Source: Geothermobacter ehrlichii (GTDB taxonomy: Bacteria > Desulfobacterota > Desulfuromonadia > Desulfuromonadales > Geothermobacteraceae). Taken from it: a stretch of DNA of 64,000 nt. Below are positions 41,298 through 51,837 of the stretch, piece by piece; within the stretch, counting starts at the first letter, position 1; every line of letters starts with the position of its first letter. A program made the translations under genes and the position numbers. The notes under the pieces are model-generated. The model was not told the origin of the DNA. It saw only the letters and a list, made by a program, of their open reading frames with translations, and searched no databases. The DNA is taken from assembly GCF_008124615.1 (NCBI RefSeq), contig NZ_VNIB01000004.1:62001-126000 (forward strand). Direction: 5' to 3'.

Positions 41298-41762
41298 TCA
41301 GACCTGCCTATTGGTCGATTCGGAAGTAGAGGCGGTGACAATGGTCGCGGCGCAACAGGCAGGGATGCTGATGCCCATGCGCCCCTCCATCTGCACCGTC
41401 GCCGACCACTCGATGCGGGTAGCGCTGGCCGGAGCCTTCCAGCTGAAGACAAAGAGGCAACCCTTTTCGCCGAGATCGGACCTGACGGGCGCCTCGAACT
41501 CATAGGTCATGCCGCTGCGAACATCCTCCCCCCGCAGCAGCAGCATACCCTGGCCGCTTTTGCCGCCGATGTTGCGCAGCCGCACGCAGAGATCGACGGT
41601 TCCCTTCACCGGCAGCTGCAGCGGAACGTTCAGTTCGAGTACCGGCGCCCACCGGCTGTCGGTGAAGGGGTCGCCCTGGTCGAGAGGCCTGCTCCCCCGA
41701 CCGATGAAGGTACCGGCCAGAGCGCCCTTGAGATAATCCTGGAAATTCTGCTGTTCCGACAT
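41298..41762 (-). CDS. Conserved protein of unknown function
   Basis: 154 aa from ATG 41762 (GAGGA 6 bp upstream; another ATG at 41774 also has a ribosome-binding site). It starts with MSEQQNFQDYLKGALAGTFI, then a beta-rich region with LELNVPLQLPVKGTVDLCVRL and a second half ending in CCAATIVTAS. No catalytic motif, signal peptide or membrane segment. Not recognised. It might be a PilZ-like or carbohydrate-binding-like beta fold, but that is a guess. Confidence 0.6.
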   Translation of the reverse strand: MSEQQNFQDYLKGALAGTFIGRGSRPLDQGDPFTDSRWAPVLELNVPLQLPVKGTVDLCVRLRNIGGKSGQGMLLLRGEDVRSGMTYEFEAPVRSDLGEKGCLFVFSWKAPASATRIEWSATVQMEGRMGISIPACCAATIVTASTSESTNRQV

Positions 41763-41951
41763 GCGATTCCTCATCCCCCCTCCGCTCTGCCGGCTTGCAG
41801 TAAACGGGCCAAGAGAAGAAAGAGCGGTATCGTCACGGAAATTTCCATATACGCCCCCTTTTTGCCGGACTCTCCGGGCCGACGGCGGCATGAAAGGAAG
41901 TGATCAACGCCATATGACGCAACCGGATCAGGGCAAATTACCAAACAGAGA

Positions 41952-42848
41952 TCAGCCAAACAGCCGATCGGCCAGCAGGCAGGCCAAAACCAGCGCCATG
42001 AACATGTTCACCCGCACAAAGAGCGGCCTCAGCTCGCCACGCCGGATCTGACGCCAGAGACCGTACAGCAGCCAGCTGCCGAGAACCGGCAGCAGCGCCC
42101 GGACCAAAGCCCCCCGGACGGGACCGAACCCGGCAAGGATGGCCGTTCCGACGGTGGCGGCAAGAACCCAGGCGGCGACAACCCGTCGCATCCCGGCCGC
42201 GTCGAGCCGGTCGGCCAGCACGGGCAGTCCCGCCCGGCGATAGTCCTGCCGGCAACGGAGGGACAGAAGCAGAAAGTGCGGAATCTGCCAGATGGCCAGC
42301 AGGGCCGCCAGCAACAGTATGCCGCCCTGTTCGAGTGATCCGCCGGCAACCAGCCAGCCGATCAGCGGTGGCAGGGCGCCGCACAGGGCGCCCGGAAGGA
42401 TAGCGAACGCGGTTTTCGGCTTCAGGGGAGTGTAGATGCCGTTGTAGAGCAGAAGTGCCAGCAACCCCAACCCCAGAGCCGCAGGCGACGGCAGCAGGAG
42501 CGACACGCCGGCCAGCAGCGCAAGAACCGCCAGCAGCAGAGCCGGCGCCGGGGTCACCCGTCCCGTCGCCAAGGGCCTGTCGCGGGTCCGCTCCATCCTC
42601 GCGTCGAGATGACGTTCCTGGACCTGGTTGAGCAGGGTGCCGGCGATGCCGAGCAGCCCCACCGCCAGGCTCGCCCACAGCACCGGCGCCGCCTGCTGCA
42701 CTCCCGGCGCCAGCAGGGCTCCGGTCAGGGCCGAGGCACAGACCATCGCCAGCAGCCGCGGCCGCAGCAGCAAACGCCATTCGGCCGCCGTAAGACGAAA
42801 GAGACCGACAGGTGCCGTCTCCGGCTGCGCTCTGCTTTTTTCGCTCAT
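41952..42848 (-). CDS. ctaB: Protoheme IX farnesyltransferase
   Basis: 298 aa with about eight membrane helices; it converts heme B to heme O for the oxidase. The UbiA-family acidic motif NQVQERHLDARMERTRDRPLATG (about residues 72-94) is exact for the heme O synthase group, and LYNGIYTPLKPKT (about 133-145) is the second conserved loop. ATG 42848 overlaps the coxB stop (ATGA). Longer frames through this region are out-of-frame overlaps. No heme A synthase gene (ctaA) is in the cluster. Confidence 0.93.
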   Translation of the reverse strand: MSEKSRAQPETAPVGLFRLTAAEWRLLLRPRLLAMVCASALTGALLAPGVQQAAPVLWASLAVGLLGIAGTLLNQVQERHLDARMERTRDRPLATGRVTPAPALLLAVLALLAGVSLLLPSPAALGLGLLALLLYNGIYTPLKPKTAFAILPGALCGALPPLIGWLVAGGSLEQGGILLLAALLAIWQIPHFLLLSLRCRQDYRRAGLPVLADRLDAAGMRRVVAAWVLAATVGTAILAGFGPVRGALVRALLPVLGSWLLYGLWRQIRRGELRPLFVRVNMFMALVLACLLADRLFG

Positions 42849-44074
42849 TGCAGGTTTTCGAGCCATTCGACAATCGCCTCGATCTCTTCGGCCGAGAGCC
42901 GCGGATAGGGCGGCATCACCGGCGGATAGCCCTCGGCGACATCGGCATTCGGTTCTCTCAGGGCGCGGGTGACATAGTCCTCGTCGGCCCGCAGGGTCCG
43001 CCCGCCCTCGAGCCGGCGTTCGCTACCGTAAAGCCCCTTGAAGCTCGGTCCGACCTTGCGGCTGCCGTCCGTCGAATGACAGCCGAGACACCCCTGCCGG
43101 CGGACGATTGCGGCCCCGTCGAGGCGGGGCTTCGTTCCGGAGTCGGCCGGGGGATTGCCCGGCCGGCCGATGCGCGACAGGTAGCCGATGATCTCCCGCA
43201 GCTCCCGCGCGGATATCTTCCCTTCGTAGCCGGGCATCACCGGCGGATAGCCGACAACGACATCGGCGCCGGGTGTGAGGATCGACCGCTCCAGGTAGCC
43301 GTCGTCACTGGTCAGAGTCCGCTCCTTGCCCTCGGTGATCACCCTCACCTGCCGGCCGCCGATCCCCTTGAAACTCGGCCCGACCAGCTTGCTGCCATCG
43401 AGGCTGTGACAGCTGAGGCAGCCGTACCGGGCCAGCAGCTCGCGCCCCTTCTCCGTCTCCTTCGCCCCGTCCATGCCGGCCAGCCACTCCTCGAATTCGG
43501 CCGGCGACACCGCCTCAACTGTAGTGTGCATGTCGGCATGGCCGATGCCGCAGTATTCGGCGCAGAAGATGTCGTAGGAGCCCTCCTCCCCGGCAACGAA
43601 CCAGACGTAGTTTTCCATCCCCGGCACCGTGTCGCGCTTGATGCGGAAGGCCGGGACATAGAAGGCGTGCAGCACATCGGCAGAGAGCAGCCTGACCTTG
43701 ACCGGCCTGCCCGCCGGAACGAACAGACGGTCGCTGTGCCGGCCACCGGGATATTCGAAATCCCAGGACCACATGCGGGCGGTGGCGGTCACCTCCATGG
43801 CGTCCGGCGGCACATTGCGCAGGGCCAGATAGCCGGCCCAGCCGAAATAGAACATCGCCATGACGATGACGGTCGGCACCACGATCCAGATGACTTCGAG
43901 GGTCAGGTTGCTGTCGACCTGCGAAGTCGGCTCGGGACAGCGCGAACGCCGGTAGCGGATGACGAACCAGATCATGGTCGCGGTAATACCCAGCAGCATC
44001 ACTGCGGAAATCCCGAGTATGAACCAGAACACGGGATCGACGGCTTCCTGGGTCGTGATCAAGGCCGGATTCAC
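42845..44074 (-). CDS. coxB: Cytochrome c oxidase subunit II with two fused cytochrome c domains
   Basis: 409 aa. Two TM helices (about 15-40 and 58-80) precede the cupredoxin CuA domain with CAEYCGIGHADM (Cys171, Cys175, His179, Met182). Then two tandem cytochrome c domains: heme 1 GCLSCH (Cys219, Cys222, His223; Met280 in PPVMPGY) and heme 2 GCLGCH (Cys329, Cys332, His333; Met387 in PPVMPPY). The two domains are similar throughout, indicating duplication. Most caa3 subunit II proteins carry only one cytochrome domain. No cleavable signal peptide is evident. Confidence 0.95.
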   Translation of the reverse strand: MNPALITTQEAVDPVFWFILGISAVMLLGITATMIWFVIRYRRSRCPEPTSQVDSNLTLEVIWIVVPTVIVMAMFYFGWAGYLALRNVPPDAMEVTATARMWSWDFEYPGGRHSDRLFVPAGRPVKVRLLSADVLHAFYVPAFRIKRDTVPGMENYVWFVAGEEGSYDIFCAEYCGIGHADMHTTVEAVSPAEFEEWLAGMDGAKETEKGRELLARYGCLSCHSLDGSKLVGPSFKGIGGRQVRVITEGKERTLTSDDGYLERSILTPGADVVVGYPPVMPGYEGKISARELREIIGYLSRIGRPGNPPADSGTKPRLDGAAIVRRQGCLGCHSTDGSRKVGPSFKGLYGSERRLEGGRTLRADEDYVTRALREPNADVAEGYPPVMPPYPRLSAEEIEAIVEWLENLQ

Positions 44075-44158: not shown

Positions 44159-44452
44159 CTAGCGGTACAACACATCGAAAAAGGTAAAGCCGATGAACAC
44201 GGTCAGGGTGACGACGGCGACCAGCAGAAAGAGCCTGAACAGCCGGTTCTCGTATTTCATGTGCATGAAGAACCCGATCACCAGCACCGACTTGCTGCAG
44301 GCGATCACCAGCGCCACCCAGATATTCAGAGCGCCGAGATCAATGCGCGAAGCGGCCACCGTCATGATGGTCAGGGTCAGCAGCGCCGCCCAGACGGCCA
44401 CCAGAGTCGCATAGGGGACAATATGTCCCTTGTCATGTTCGTTCATCGCCAC
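44159..44452 (-). CDS. Cytochrome c oxidase subunit IV (caa3-type)
   Basis: 97 aa with three membrane helices. The pattern HIVPYATLVAVWAALLTLTI and MHMKYENRLFRLFLLVA match the COX4_pro/CtaF group. GTG 44452 has GGGAG 8 bp upstream; ATG 44446 is the alternative. It lies between ctaE and coxB, separated from coxB by 84 bp. Confidence 0.85.
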   Translation of the reverse strand: MAMNEHDKGHIVPYATLVAVWAALLTLTIMTVAASRIDLGALNIWVALVIACSKSVLVIGFFMHMKYENRLFRLFLLVAVVTLTVFIGFTFFDVLYR

Positions 44453-44476: not shown

Positions 44477-45100
44477 TCAAAGGATGAGATAGTAGAGTGG
44501 AAAGATGAAAATCCAGATCAGATCGACCAGATGCCAGTAGAGCCCGGCGTTCTCCAGAGTGACGTAGTCCTCGGGATTGACCTTGCCCCGGCGGATCAGC
44601 AGCAGCACCCAGCCCATCATCACCATCCCGACCAGTACGTGAATGCCGTGCAGACCGGTGGTCAGGTAGTAGATGCTGAAAAAGACCTGCTCGCCGGCCG
44701 GCAGCTCCTTCAGCTGCGGCGAGCTGGGGTAGATGCCGTGGTGGATCTTGGCACTCCATTCGAAATACTTGTTGACCAGAAAACAGAAGGCCATGGCGAC
44801 GGTCACCCCGACCAGGCCCATCGTCTGGCGGACCCGGCCGCGCTGCAGGGCGGTGATCGCCATCGCCACGCTCAGGCTGCTGGTCAGCAGTACCAGGGTG
44901 TTACCGCCGCCGAACCAGACATTGAGCTGCTCGCCACCTAGCCGGAATCCCTCCGGGTAGCGCTGCAGATAGACGGCGTAGAGGATGAACAGGCCACCGA
45001 ACAGCAGCACCTCGGTGAACAGAAACAGCCACATGCCGAGCTTGGCGCCGGTGTAGTCCTTCGGATGCGCGGCCTGCGTCGCAGGTGACGATTCACTCAT
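44477..45100 (-). CDS. ctaE: Cytochrome c oxidase subunit III
   Basis: 207 aa with five hydrophobic segments, the short caa3-type form. YTGAKLGMWLFLFTEVLLFGGLF (about 16-38) and the conserved TGLHGIHVLVGMVMMGWV (about 147-164) and LYWHLVDLIWIFIFPLYY near the C-terminus are typical. The start directly abuts the ctaD stop. Confidence 0.94.
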   Translation of the reverse strand: MSESSPATQAAHPKDYTGAKLGMWLFLFTEVLLFGGLFILYAVYLQRYPEGFRLGGEQLNVWFGGGNTLVLLTSSLSVAMAITALQRGRVRQTMGLVGVTVAMAFCFLVNKYFEWSAKIHHGIYPSSPQLKELPAGEQVFFSIYYLTTGLHGIHVLVGMVMMGWVLLLIRRGKVNPEDYVTLENAGLYWHLVDLIWIFIFPLYYLIL

Positions 45101-46723
45101 CTACAACCCCGCCTTCCTGAAGTCATAGGGCCCGTGGGTCACTTCCGGCTCATGGTCGAAATTCTCCAGCGGCGGCGGCGAACTGGTCTGCCATTCGAGA
45201 CTGGCGCCGCCCCAGGGATTGGCGCCGGCCGGCTCGCCGCGCAGCAGACCGCGGAAGATGTTGACGAACATGATGACCAGCCCCAGCACCAGAATCCAGG
45301 AACCGATGGTCGAAAGCTGGTTCCAGAAGGTGAACTTCGGCAGATAGTCGTAGTAGCGGCGCGGCATCCCTTCGACGCCGACGATCATCATCGACATGTA
45401 GAGCACGATGAAACCGAAGGTCAGCAATGCCCAGCCCCAGACCGCCGCCTTCCTGCTATACATCCGGCCGTAGATCTTCGGCAGCCAGTAGTGCATGGCG
45501 GCGAAATAGGCGAAGCCGGTGCCGCCGAACATGACGAAATGGAAATGTCCGACCACGAAATAGGTGTCGTGCACGTGCACGTCGGTCGCCGCCGCGCCGA
45601 GCACCAGCCCGGTCAGGCCGCCAATGGAGAAGAGAAAGATGAAGGAGAGGGCGAACAGCAGCGGCGGATCGAGGGCGATCGACCCCTTGTAGAGGGTCGC
45701 CACCCAGTTGAAGACCTTGATCGCCGAGGGGATGGCGACCAGAAAGGTCAGCAGCGAGAAAACCATCACCGCAGTGTCGGACATGCCGCTGGTGACCATG
45801 TGGTGCGCCCAGACCACCGAACCGGCGCCGGCGATCGCCAGCGAGGAGATGGCGATCGCCTTGTAGCCGAACACCGGCTTGCGGGCGAAGACCGGAATGA
45901 TGTCGGTAACCACCCCCATCGCCGGCAGGATCATGATGTAGACCGCGGGGTGGGAGTAGATCCAGAACAGGTGCTGGTACATGATCGGATCGCCGCCGCG
46001 GGTCGGATCGAACAGGCCGGTGCCGATCACCCGCTCGGCAAAGATCAGCAGTACGGTGATGCCGAGCACCGGAGTCGCCAGCACCTGCACCCAGGCGGTG
46101 GCATAGAGCGCCCAGGTGAACAGCGGAATGCGCATCCAGGTCATCCCCGGGGCGCGCAGGCGGTGGATGGTGACCAGAAAGTTCAGGCCGGTGAGGATGC
46201 CGGAAAAACCGATGATGAAGACCGCCAGGGTGGCCAGCGAGACGTTGGTGGTGGTCCGCACCGAAAAGGGAACGTAGAAGGTCCAGCCGGTGTCCGGCGC
46301 CCCGCCGGCGGTAAAGAGCGATGTCAGCGCCATGATCGCGCCGATGGCGTAGAGCCACCAGGAGAGCAGGTTCAGCCGGGGAAAGGCGACATCCTCGGCA
46401 CCGATCTGGATCGGCATCACCAGGTTGCCGAAGGCGGCCGGAATACCGGGAATGATGAAGAGGAAGATCATCACCACCCCGTGCAGGGTGAACAGCGCGT
46501 TGTACTGCTGGGGAGTGAAGAGGTCGGCCCCCGGCGCAAACAATTCGAGCCGCAGGGCCAGGCCGAGCAGCACCCCGACGCAGAAGAATGCCAGGGTGGA
46601 ATAGAAATAGAGCAGGCCGATCCGCTTGTGGTCGGTGGAGAAGACCCAGGTGCCGATGCCGCGCCGCCCGCCCGAAGCGTCCCAGAAGCCGCGTTGCCCA
46701 CTGACCGATGCCGCCTGGTTCAT
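45101..46723 (-). CDS. ctaD: Cytochrome c oxidase subunit I, A2-type
   Basis: 540 aa, twelve helices. Heme and CuB ligands are in TLHGVVMIFLFIIP, WIYSHPAVYIMILPAMG (His and the cross-linked Tyr), SVVWAHHMVTSGM and HFHFVMFGG. The motif YSHPAV in place of GHPEV, with no Glu, is the mark of A2-type (Thermus-like) heme-copper oxidases, in which the proton channel uses Tyr and Ser. The K-channel region (HDTYFVVGHFH) is conserved. GAGG precedes the ATG. The protein pumps protons while reducing oxygen. Confidence 0.97.
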   Translation of the reverse strand: MNQAASVSGQRGFWDASGGRRGIGTWVFSTDHKRIGLLYFYSTLAFFCVGVLLGLALRLELFAPGADLFTPQQYNALFTLHGVVMIFLFIIPGIPAAFGNLVMPIQIGAEDVAFPRLNLLSWWLYAIGAIMALTSLFTAGGAPDTGWTFYVPFSVRTTTNVSLATLAVFIIGFSGILTGLNFLVTIHRLRAPGMTWMRIPLFTWALYATAWVQVLATPVLGITVLLIFAERVIGTGLFDPTRGGDPIMYQHLFWIYSHPAVYIMILPAMGVVTDIIPVFARKPVFGYKAIAISSLAIAGAGSVVWAHHMVTSGMSDTAVMVFSLLTFLVAIPSAIKVFNWVATLYKGSIALDPPLLFALSFIFLFSIGGLTGLVLGAAATDVHVHDTYFVVGHFHFVMFGGTGFAYFAAMHYWLPKIYGRMYSRKAAVWGWALLTFGFIVLYMSMMIVGVEGMPRRYYDYLPKFTFWNQLSTIGSWILVLGLVIMFVNIFRGLLRGEPAGANPWGGASLEWQTSSPPPLENFDHEPEVTHGPYDFRKAGL

Positions 46724-46730
46724 AAACGCC

Positions 46731-47525
46731 TCAATTCTTCTTCCGCCGCCCGCGTCCGCCGAACATCAGCACCAGAAAGAGGATGACGGCGCACAGGAAA
46801 ACGACGATGCCGGTGACGCGAAGGATATTGAACACATAGCCCCGCCGTTCGGGGTCGTAACTGTAGCAGAGACTGGCCAAGCGGCTGATGGTGCTGCCGA
46901 TGCGCCCTTCCGAGGCCTCCAGCAGCGCCAGCGACAGGTCGGTTGCGAGAAAACGGGTTCCTTCGAGGTAGCGGACGATCCGGCCGCCCGGCGCCAGGAC
47001 CACCACGGCCACCGGATGAACGAATTCGCTGCCCTCCTTGTAGAAACGGTAACCGATGGCCGTCGTCAGCCGGCGGATGGCCCCGGCGTCGGCGGTCAGA
47101 AAAAGCCAGCTGTCCATGGGAAACCGCTCCCGCACCGCGGCGCGATAGATCTTCTTGCTCCCCCGCGCCACCGCCGGCGTCTCATCCGGGTCGAAGCTGA
47201 AGGAAAGAACCCGGATTTCCCGCCGCAACTCCCGACCCAGTTTCGGCAGCGACTGGGCCAGGCTCGCCTGCAGGGCGTTGCAGACATTGCTGCAGCGATA
47301 GTAGACCGGCGCCAGCAGGACCGGCCGGTCGAACAGGTCGCCGAGCCGCAGCTGCCGGCCGAGTTCGTCGCGCACCATAATATCGGGCGGCACCTGCTCG
47401 CCGAGCCGCTCCTCGATGCCGACCTTCGGCGGCCTTCGCGGCTCCCCGGAGGTGGACGCCCGGACAACCGACGCTCCGCTTGCGGCCACCAGCCACAACA
47501 GGATGATCCAGTGCAATCCAGCCAT
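46731..47525 (-). CDS. SCO1/SenC copper chaperone
   Basis: 264 aa from ATG 47525; the ATG at 47540 would add five residues. A hydrophobic N-terminal segment (WIILLWLVAASGASVV) anchors a thioredoxin-fold domain. Copper ligands are in YYRCSNVCN (CxxxC) and, about 90 residues later, EFVHPVAV. A C-terminal membrane helix (IVVFLCAVILFLVLMFG) is also present. SCO proteins deliver copper to the CuA site of subunit II. It is the first gene of the oxidase operon and lies 8 bp before ctaD. Confidence 0.9.
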   Translation of the reverse strand: MAGLHWIILLWLVAASGASVVRASTSGEPRRPPKVGIEERLGEQVPPDIMVRDELGRQLRLGDLFDRPVLLAPVYYRCSNVCNALQASLAQSLPKLGRELRREIRVLSFSFDPDETPAVARGSKKIYRAAVRERFPMDSWLFLTADAGAIRRLTTAIGYRFYKEGSEFVHPVAVVVLAPGGRIVRYLEGTRFLATDLSLALLEASEGRIGSTISRLASLCYSYDPERRGYVFNILRVTGIVVFLCAVILFLVLMFGGRGRRKKN

Positions 47526-47612
47526 GATGCTCTCAAGCATATCCTGCCGCCGGAAAACCGCAACCGGCGGAAATCACGACCGGAACCCGTGCCCTCGTCA
47601 CCCGGACGAATT

Positions 47613-47631: not shown

Positions 47632-47731
47632 TTTTTTCTTGCAATCTTCCCGCCGGGTGTTAAATCATGGATAAAGTCAATCCGACCACAGCCGGTGAAA
47701 TCAATTCGACGCATGCAAAGGAGTGGACCCC

Positions 47732-48109
47732 ATGAGTCAGGAACCGAGTCTTTTCTGCCAGGTCAACAAGGCCAAAGACCCCGCCAACATGACCGATCTC
47801 GAAAAGAAGCACACCCCGGTGATCAGCGTACCGAGCGAAATCAGGGCCGGCGAAACCGTCGAGGTCACGGTCGAGGTCGGCAAGCTGCTGGCCCACCCGA
47901 ACGAGCCCGGGCATTTCATCGAGTGGATCGATCTCTACGCAAACTGGGTCTTTCTGGCCCGCCTCGACCTGAGTGCCGTCACCACCCAGCCGACGCTGAA
48001 GATTCCGGTCACCATCCCGCACGGCATCGACAAACTGACCCTGCGCGCCTTCGAGCGCTGCAACCTGCACGGAGTCTGGGAAGGCACCGTCGAGGTCAAG
48101 GTCGTCTGA
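47732..48109 (+). CDS. Superoxide reductase (neelaredoxin-type)
   Basis: 125 aa. It reduces superoxide to hydrogen peroxide at a single iron site. The ligand pattern is complete: His27 (KKHTPVI), His55 and His61 (AHPNEPGHFIEW), Cys110 and His113 (CNLHGVWE). One of the two adjacent histidines of the usual EHHI segment is missing (GHFI), leaving a count of four His plus one Cys, as expected. The N-terminal desulforedoxin Fe(Cys)4 domain is absent, so it is the one-iron form. AAGGAG precedes ATG 47732. Confidence 0.92.
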   Translation: MSQEPSLFCQVNKAKDPANMTDLEKKHTPVISVPSEIRAGETVEVTVEVGKLLAHPNEPGHFIEWIDLYANWVFLARLDLSAVTTQPTLKIPVTIPHGIDKLTLRAFERCNLHGVWEGTVEVKVV

Positions 48110-50549: not shown

Positions 50550-51116
50550 TCACGCCCGCGAAACGAACCGGCCCTCGCGGGTGTCGACCTTGATCCGGTC
50601 GCCCGGTTCCAGGTAGGGCGGCACCTGCAGCACCAGGCCGGTTTCCAGGGTCGCTTCCTTGGTCTGGGCGGTGGCGGTGGCGTTCTTCAGCACCGGCGGC
50701 GTCTCGGTGATGGTCAGCTCGACGGTCATCGGCGGTTCGACCGACACCACCTGCCCCTGAAACAGCCCCAGCACGACCTCCATCCCCTCCAGCAGATAGC
50801 CCTTGACCGGTCCGTAGATCTCGGGCCCCAGCTCGTACTGGTCGTAGCTCTCCAGGTCCATGAAGGTTCCTTCCTCGTCGGAAGAGGCGTAGAGAAACTG
50901 TCCCTTGCGCTTTTCGAAGTCGGCTTCCTCCACCTTCTCCCCGGCCTTGAAGGTCTTTTCCAGCACCTGGCCGGTGAGCAGGTTGCGGTACTTGGTCTTC
51001 ACCAGGGTGTTGGCGCCCCGGGCGGTGGGAGTGTGCTGGCTGACGTCGAGCAGCGCACAGGGCGCACCGTCGAGCAGGATGACCAGCCCGCGCTTGAAAT
51101 CGGCTGTCGTGTACAT
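50550..51116 (-). CDS. efpL: Elongation factor P-like protein EfpL (YeiP)
   Basis: 188 aa three-domain EF-P paralogue. The loop tip reads QHTPTARGANTL with Arg33 at the position that is Lys in EF-P, exactly the PTARGA loop of E. coli YeiP/EfpL, which is not beta-lysylated and rescues ribosomes stalled at XPPX-like motifs. The VEPPMTVELTITETPP segment and KEATLETGLVLQVPPYLEPGD are typical of domain 2 and 3. It is transcribed divergently from efp. AAGGAG precedes the ATG. Confidence 0.93.
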   Translation of the reverse strand: MYTTADFKRGLVILLDGAPCALLDVSQHTPTARGANTLVKTKYRNLLTGQVLEKTFKAGEKVEEADFEKRKGQFLYASSDEEGTFMDLESYDQYELGPEIYGPVKGYLLEGMEVVLGLFQGQVVSVEPPMTVELTITETPPVLKNATATAQTKEATLETGLVLQVPPYLEPGDRIKVDTREGRFVSRA

Positions 51117-51273: not shown

Positions 51274-51837
51274 ATGTACACATGTTCCGATCTGAAAAAG
51301 GGGCTGAAGCTGCTCATCGACGGCGAGCCGCATGTCATCGTCCAGTTCGATTTCACCAAGCCGGGCAAAGGGCAGGCCCTCTACAAGTGCAAGCTGCGCA
51401 ACATGCTGACCGGCGCCCTGTTCGACCGCACCTACCGCTCCGGCGAAAGCTTCGAGCCGGCCAGCCTCGAGGAGCGCGACATGCAGTACCTCTACCAGGA
51501 CGAAACCGGCTACGTCTTCATGGACCAGCGGACCTACGAGCAGGTCACCATTCCGGAAGACGTCCTCGGCGACGACAAATACTTTCTCATCGACAACATG
51601 GAGGTCAAGGTGCTGATGTTCGGCGAGCGGGGCATCGGCGTCACCCTGCCCAACTTCGTCAACCTGCGCGTCACCAAGGCCGAGCCCTGGGTCAAGGGCG
51701 ACACCGCCGCCGGCAACAGCAAGCCGGCGACCGTGGAAACCGGCTACACCCTGCAGGTCCCCTCGTTCGTCGAGGAGGGCACCCTGATCCAGATCGACAC
51801 CCGCACCGGCGAGTACGTCACCCGGGTCAAGGAATAA
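51274..51837 (+). CDS. efp: Translation elongation factor P
   Basis: 187 aa. The loop KPGKGQAL carries Lys32, the residue modified by EpmA. It relieves ribosome stalling at polyproline stretches. LKKGLKLLIDGEPHVIVQFD (domain 1), YVFMDQRTYEQV (domain 2) and the GYTLQVPSFVEEGTLIQIDTRTGEY C-terminal block are typical. AGGAG precedes the ATG at 9 bp. It is followed 8 bp later by epmA. Confidence 0.97.
   Translation: MYTCSDLKKGLKLLIDGEPHVIVQFDFTKPGKGQALYKCKLRNMLTGALFDRTYRSGESFEPASLEERDMQYLYQDETGYVFMDQRTYEQVTIPEDVLGDDKYFLIDNMEVKVLMFGERGIGVTLPNFVNLRVTKAEPWVKGDTAAGNSKPATVETGYTLQVPSFVEEGTLIQIDTRTGEYVTRVKE

Follow-up and report, generated by a model that had tools for sequence, protein, structure and literature searches.

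A subunit II with two haem c domains in a putative A2-type haem-copper oxidase of Geothermobacter ehrlichii

The caa3 oxidases of Rhodothermus marinus and Thermus thermophilus contain one haem c domain and haem A. A dihaem haem-copper oxidase of Desulfovibrio vulgaris Hildenborough was reportedly described by Lobo 2008 and Lamrabet 2011, initially as ccaa3 and later as cc(o/b)o3. Passages of PMC4383621 assign the D. vulgaris enzyme to the cc(b/o)o3 type and name cytochrome c553 as its electron donor. For the ccaa3 oxidase of Shewanella oneidensis, an excerpt of PMC3899249 describes a CoxB protein with two similar haem c domains after CuA (61% identity), which its authors ascribed to a duplication. 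Dihaem subunits II are also in print for Pseudomonas KF707 (excerpt of PMC5492768) and are mentioned in a passage of PMC5436846.

We analyzed a stretch of 64,000 nucleotides of G. ehrlichii (hereafter the window), in which coxB encodes a further member of this dihaem kind. By description, the CuA subunit II of D. vulgaris Hildenborough resembles it in bearing two cytochrome c domains, although this organism belongs to a different class. Desulfovibrio-like and Desulfomicrobium-like loci (L040-L044, L046, L051) also exhibited two domains and the subunit I motif YSHPAVY, at a CoxB identity of 43-49%. Unlike the G. ehrlichii locus, that of S. oneidensis encodes a subunit I of the A1 type (GHPEV) and includes ctaA, as stated in the excerpt of PMC3899249; judged from this description, its two-domain CoxB probably arose by an independent duplication. 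Our additions are modest and concern how old the duplication is, how common it is within the order and the lack of a haem A synthase. They correct two natural misreadings, since a second haem domain is no novelty or rarity in the lineage and the haem A that the name caa3 implies is probably absent.

Architecture of coxB and its operon

The following features were located in the window:

46731..47540 (-): sco-like copper chaperone gene, by CxxxC motif and gene position
45101..46723 (-): coxA, subunit I (Pfam), with YSHPAVY where GHPEVY stands otherwise
44477..45100 (-): coxC, subunit III (Pfam)
44159..44452 (-): coxD, subunit IV (COX4_pro, caa3_sub_IV)
42845..44074 (-): coxB, subunit II, 409 aa, GTG start (ORF; Pfam, NCBIfam and PDB chain matches)
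43529..43564 (-): CuA motif CAEYCGIGHADM, residues 171-182 (from the sequence); His136 is a further ligand
43166..43462 (-): cytochrome c domain 1 (D1), residues 205-303, by alignment to D2 and homologues
43406-43420 (-): CxxCH of D1
43235-43237 (-): axial Met codon of D1
42848..43126 (-): cytochrome c domain 2 (D2), residues 317-409, by Pfam PF00034, chain 1w2l and alignment
43076-43090 (-): CxxCH of D2
42914-42916 (-): axial Met codon of D2
41952..42866 (-): ctaB-like haem O synthase gene (UbiA family; Pfam UbiA 154.7 bits), overlapping the end of coxB

From the N- to the C-terminus, the coxB product comprises two membrane helices, the CuA domain, D1 and D2. The initial annotation had proposed a subunit II with two tandem cytochrome c domains at 42845-44074, each with CxxCH and PPVMP, and both points were confirmed by the ORF, profile matches and alignments (CxxCH at residues 219 and 329, PPVMP at 277 and 384). 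CuA is thus followed by two domains that each combine a CxxCH with a Met ligand, as in a dihaem subunit II. The protein scored 176.3 bits against the CoxB profile TIGR02866 (NCBIfam; cut-off 147.7) with the CuA ligands present. It matched COX2_TM, COX2 and Cytochrom_C of Pfam; the best Cytochrom_C stretch fell on D2, and no separate stretch for D1 was obtained at E 0.001, so that D1 rests on its alignment to D2 and to homologues. Of 94 aligned residues, D1 and D2 share 45 (48%), far over chance. C171, C175, H179, M182 and H136 were invariant across 16 sequences (alignment A1), and the CuA spacing motif recurred in 90 of 91 homologous ORFs.

Like the caa3 oxidases of R. marinus and T. thermophilus, the protein carries cytochrome c C-terminally of CuA. 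Chain 1w2l, which is listed as cytochrome oxidase subunit II and presumably stems from R. marinus, matched D2 (residues 320-407, E 4.1e-24), while 2yev_B, subunit II of the Thermus caa3 enzyme, topped both the sequence list and the fold list as ranked by E-value, with a TM-score of 0.35 relative to the query length. The predicted structure (mean pLDDT 77, pTM 0.53) contained helices at 8-45 and 57-86 and a linker of low confidence at residues 307-316. An assembly artefact was ruled out, because the layout recurs in separately assembled relatives of the genus and family and in a separate collection.

From 47540 down to 41952 the genes are arranged in the order sco-like, coxA, coxC, coxD, coxB and ctaB-like. 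Matches to Sco, CoxA, CoxC, CoxD, CoxB and CtaB in the same order and on one strand were found at 28 of 33 loci (L031-L063), including that of Geothermobacter hydrogeniphilus (L031, 78% identity). Table 4 of PMC8235581, as excerpted, gives the same six genes in this order with consecutive locus tags for two Desulfuromonas strains, and the order except ctaB for a third. The best NCBIfam match of the ctaB-like gene was TIGR01473 at 179.6 bits, below the cut-off of 210.3. The sco-like gene had no Pfam or NCBIfam match at E 0.001, which sets this branch of Sco proteins far apart from the models. Subunit I contains YSHPxV, the motif of the A2 type, within LFWIYSHPAVYIMILP (here as YSHPAVY) and was accordingly assigned to the A2-type haem-copper oxidases. 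YSHPAV was present, in the same or a one-letter-variant context, at 31 of the loci L031-L063; L037 and L048 were unreadable there. We conclude, with a probability of roughly 0.8, that coxB encodes a subunit II, extended C-terminally by a dihaem region, of an A2-type CuA haem-copper oxygen reductase of the D. vulgaris kind.

Two further genes flank the operon. After the ctaB-like gene lies a conserved ORF of 197 aa (41298-41891, -) with no Pfam match, whose relatives at three loci (L031-L033) are 36-70% identical and occupy the same place. On the other side, a desulfoferrodoxin gene (superoxide defence; 47723-48109, +) is divergent from the oxidase operon.

Prevalence, age and constraint of the two-domain form

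One haem domain had initially been regarded as the norm and two as unusual. The comparison with homologues proposed as a check was carried out and revealed the reverse within the order. In a sample of 58 genomes of the order, including that of the window, in which classes were read from match range and frame length, 34 genomes matched CoxB, namely 23 with two domains, nine with one and two with a distant oxidase (27-28% identity). Two domains are therefore the norm among the genomes with a close homologue (23/32, vs 9/32 with one domain), and all five family genomes in the sample possessed them. A collection of 91 CoxB-like ORFs (L001-L091) comprised 44 two-domain, 36 one-domain and 11 ORFs without a haem domain, numbers that give no frequency estimate because the loci were chosen by search tools and four two-domain entries are duplicates. 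The haem motifs of two-domain homologues lie 99-150 residues apart. The tails following the CuA match in the 36 one-domain ORFs measured 97-134 residues and could not accommodate a second domain even in decayed form, and tblastn searches of the 900 bases downstream of these genes yielded nothing in 35 cases; the sole match (L068) was weak, on the opposite strand and had an E-value of 0.002.

The likeness of D1 and D2 had also been taken as a sign of recent duplication. This notion did not hold, since D1 and D2 are 48% identical, whereas orthologous domains of four other family genomes share 58-69% (D1) and 55-77% (D2), and since careful trees oppose it. Synonymous divergence hardly separates a recent from an old duplication, as the D1-D2 dS of 1.21 lies merely at the top of the range of orthologous domains in the family (0.77-1.20). 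The domain trees were based on about 100 columns. In a careful 94-row tree excluding the distant one-domain families and L088, one branch (93/87) parted all 39 D1 from all 39 D2. The D1s of five proteins of the own family (f1) and four f12-like proteins formed one set (97/91). A second set (98/84) held the D2s of four f1 proteins and of the four f12-like ones, together with the single-domain L030; with L005 added, the support of this D2 set was 84/0. In a 55-row tree, 24 D1 and 24 D2 parted with 80/83. A duplication confined to the family was rejected by both data sets (AU p 0.0015 with 55 rows and 0.032 with 94 rows), as was a duplication joining f1 and f12 (p 0.037, 55 rows). A quick 108-row tree was compatible with the family-only duplication (p 0.57), but its free search missed a better tree, and a quick 112-row tree gave no clean separation of D1 and D2 (17 label changes).

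Distance quartets were evaluated for 120 pairs of 16 groups. Of these, 64 pointed to a duplication older than the split and 56 to within-protein similarity, while cross pairing was never observed. The f1/f12 quartets favored the older duplication in 100% of the resamples. With f7, f11, L013 and Desulfomicrobium, within-protein similarity was narrowly ahead for f1 (48-73% of resamples), and the quartets of f7, f11 and f17 were mixed overall; family f7 may have experienced a separate duplication or else gene conversion (55-row tree, AU p 0.55). Since the quartets are mixed for some groups, a single old duplication of the haem c domain is likely, although proof does not extend to every group, and by these sequence comparisons the two-domain form is old in the lineage of G. 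ehrlichii. L088, a member of the distant family f47, behaved as expected for its own duplication, with within-protein similarity in 15 of 15 pairs (72-100% of resamples), and both of its domains fell among the one-domain kin of f47 in the 112-row tree, as in an independent gain of the second domain.

Some single domains grouped with D1 (L016, L017, L026, L039, L068) and others with D2 (L030, L052) in the 55-row tree. A position beside D1 in this unrooted tree suggests loss of the outer domain and one beside D2 loss of the inner domain. Several one-domain relatives thus probably arose by losing one whole domain.

Constraint was studied in 40 two-domain proteins (four duplicate loci dropped). 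An MP pair 35-80 residues past the haem His was present in 80 of 80 domains; as the domains had been delimited by their own CxxCH, the Met alone provides an independent test of ligand retention. Compared with L002, L003 and L004, dN/dS values were 0.27-0.31 for D1, 0.17-0.19 for D2 and 0.07-0.14 for CuA; with L005 they were 0.40, 0.38 and 0.17, respectively. Thus, both haem domains are constrained, though less than CuA. Being under purifying selection, as the codon comparisons indicate, and with their ligands kept, D1 and D2 both look functional. In view of these ratios well below 1, the retained ligands, the f1/f12 quartets, the AU tests and the single branch between the two domain sets, we consider it very improbable that the tandem arose by a recent, lineage-specific duplication of little function with one domain drifting, even though the 48% likeness, the quick 108-row tree and the dS value could be quoted in favor of such an event.

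Haem type of the oxidase

The label caa3 used in the initial annotation is probably wrong. Haem A synthase (PF02628) was detected in none of the 58 genomes of the order, including that of G. ehrlichii, which is listed as 100% complete, while the same search was positive for 7 of 14 control genomes. In a phylum sample, 23 of 297 genomes carried it. Among the genomes of this sample with a CoxB match, it was absent from all ten two-domain genomes of the own clade (G000, G003, G004, G010, G030, G095, G151, G171, G203, G305) and from 13 one-domain genomes outside f47 with 42-61% identity (G062, G080, G117, G172, G191, G193, G240, G262, G283, G292, G298, G311, G342). Two f47 genomes read as two-domain do carry PF02628, G178 (sequence-checked, the source of L088) and G273 (match table only). 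Because PF02628 was not detected in the sampled genomes of the order and the clade, the name caa3 is doubtful here. Since the gene overlapping coxB is moreover ctaB-like, although its score stays below the NCBIfam cut-off, an enzyme with haem O or B, like the cc(o/b)o3 oxidase of D. vulgaris, is likelier than one with haem A.

The absence of PF02628 leaves room for an unrelated haem A synthase. An Arg-Leu-Glu-Leu stretch of subunit I, presumably the place of the haem a formyl arginine in aa3 oxidases, looks conserved, as would befit a true ccaa3 enzyme whose haem A is made by a synthase beyond the recognition of Pfam. Oxidases of the present kind are also named caa3 in the excerpt of a Desulfuromonas genome paper (PMC8235581). 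Nevertheless, we judge this improbable in view of the distribution of PF02628 and of D. vulgaris, whose oxidase has an equal subunit II layout and is reported as cc(b/o)o3 (passages of PMC4383621). In the parts consulted of the literature on dihaem subunit II, ccaa3, Desulfovibrio oxidases and Geobacter haem A synthase, there was no statement on a missing ctaA in Desulfuromonadales, though one may exist. Extending the haem O/B reading, we tentatively suggest, as a generalization that may well fail, that the oxidases annotated as caa3 in Desulfuromonadales-like and Desulfovibrio-like bacteria have no haem A and descend from an ancestor with two haem c domains, of which the inner or the outer has since been dropped several times, and that f47, which has haem A synthase, gained its second domain separately.

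Putative electron transfer and genomic context

A periplasmic c-type cytochrome or a bc-type complex would deliver electrons to the outer haem of D2, from where they may pass via D1 to CuA. CuA would hand them to a low-spin haem B/O and this, in turn, to the haem o3-CuB site, at which O2 would be reduced to water. Given the pTM of the model, the order D2, D1, CuA is a conjecture drawn from the succession of domains along the chain. The initial annotation had suggested that the extra haem might extend the reach to external electron donors or buffer electrons. D1 and D2 might instead act in parallel, or D2 might serve as a tethered electron store, which the low-confidence linker of the model and the variable spacing of the haem motifs would permit. 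The sequence is neutral between series and parallel arrangements, but D1 is joined to the CuA domain by a short linker like the single domain of caa3, and we regard a parallel or storage function as rather doubtful. The isoelectric points of D1 (8.6) and D2 (5.4) offer no general clue to docking, as the medians over 40 homologues each were 4.9 and 5.0. Relatives with one and with two haem domains form a natural series in which the function of the second haem could be tested.

The oxidase presumably serves in protection from, or growth with, low oxygen. Such a role is discussed for D. vulgaris in passages of PMC4383621 and, elsewhere, for G. sulfurreducens, whose genes for cytochrome c oxidase were not upregulated in microaerobic conditions. 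By hand tally, a bc-type cytochrome b (PF00033) occurred in 22 of 23 genomes with two domains, 6 of 9 with one domain, 15 of 24 without a CoxB match and both of those with only a distant match. A link to the donor drawn from this distribution was dismissed, because the three one-domain genomes lacking PF00033 all belong to one family, so that it proves nothing on the donor. G. ehrlichii itself has one cytochrome b beside a Rieske and a multihaem c gene, and this locus is a candidate electron source for the oxidase.

The genome encodes one further haem-copper oxidase, of the cbb3 type. Its mono-haem subunit FixO is fused to a second cytochrome c domain (L096:3082-3951, -, contig C5; 289 aa, FixO and Cytochrome_CBB3). 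Together with the dihaem CoxB, this means that each of the two haem-copper oxidases encoded in the genome includes a subunit to which a haem domain has been added.

Elsewhere in the window, two elongation factor P genes identified by Pfam are arranged head to head (50550-51116, -, and 51274-51837, +). Their products differ in the tip loops, TARGAN and KPGKGQ, and ORFs resembling EpmB and EpmA, named by reading of the sequence, adjoin the pair. One form of the factor may be unmodified or modified differently.
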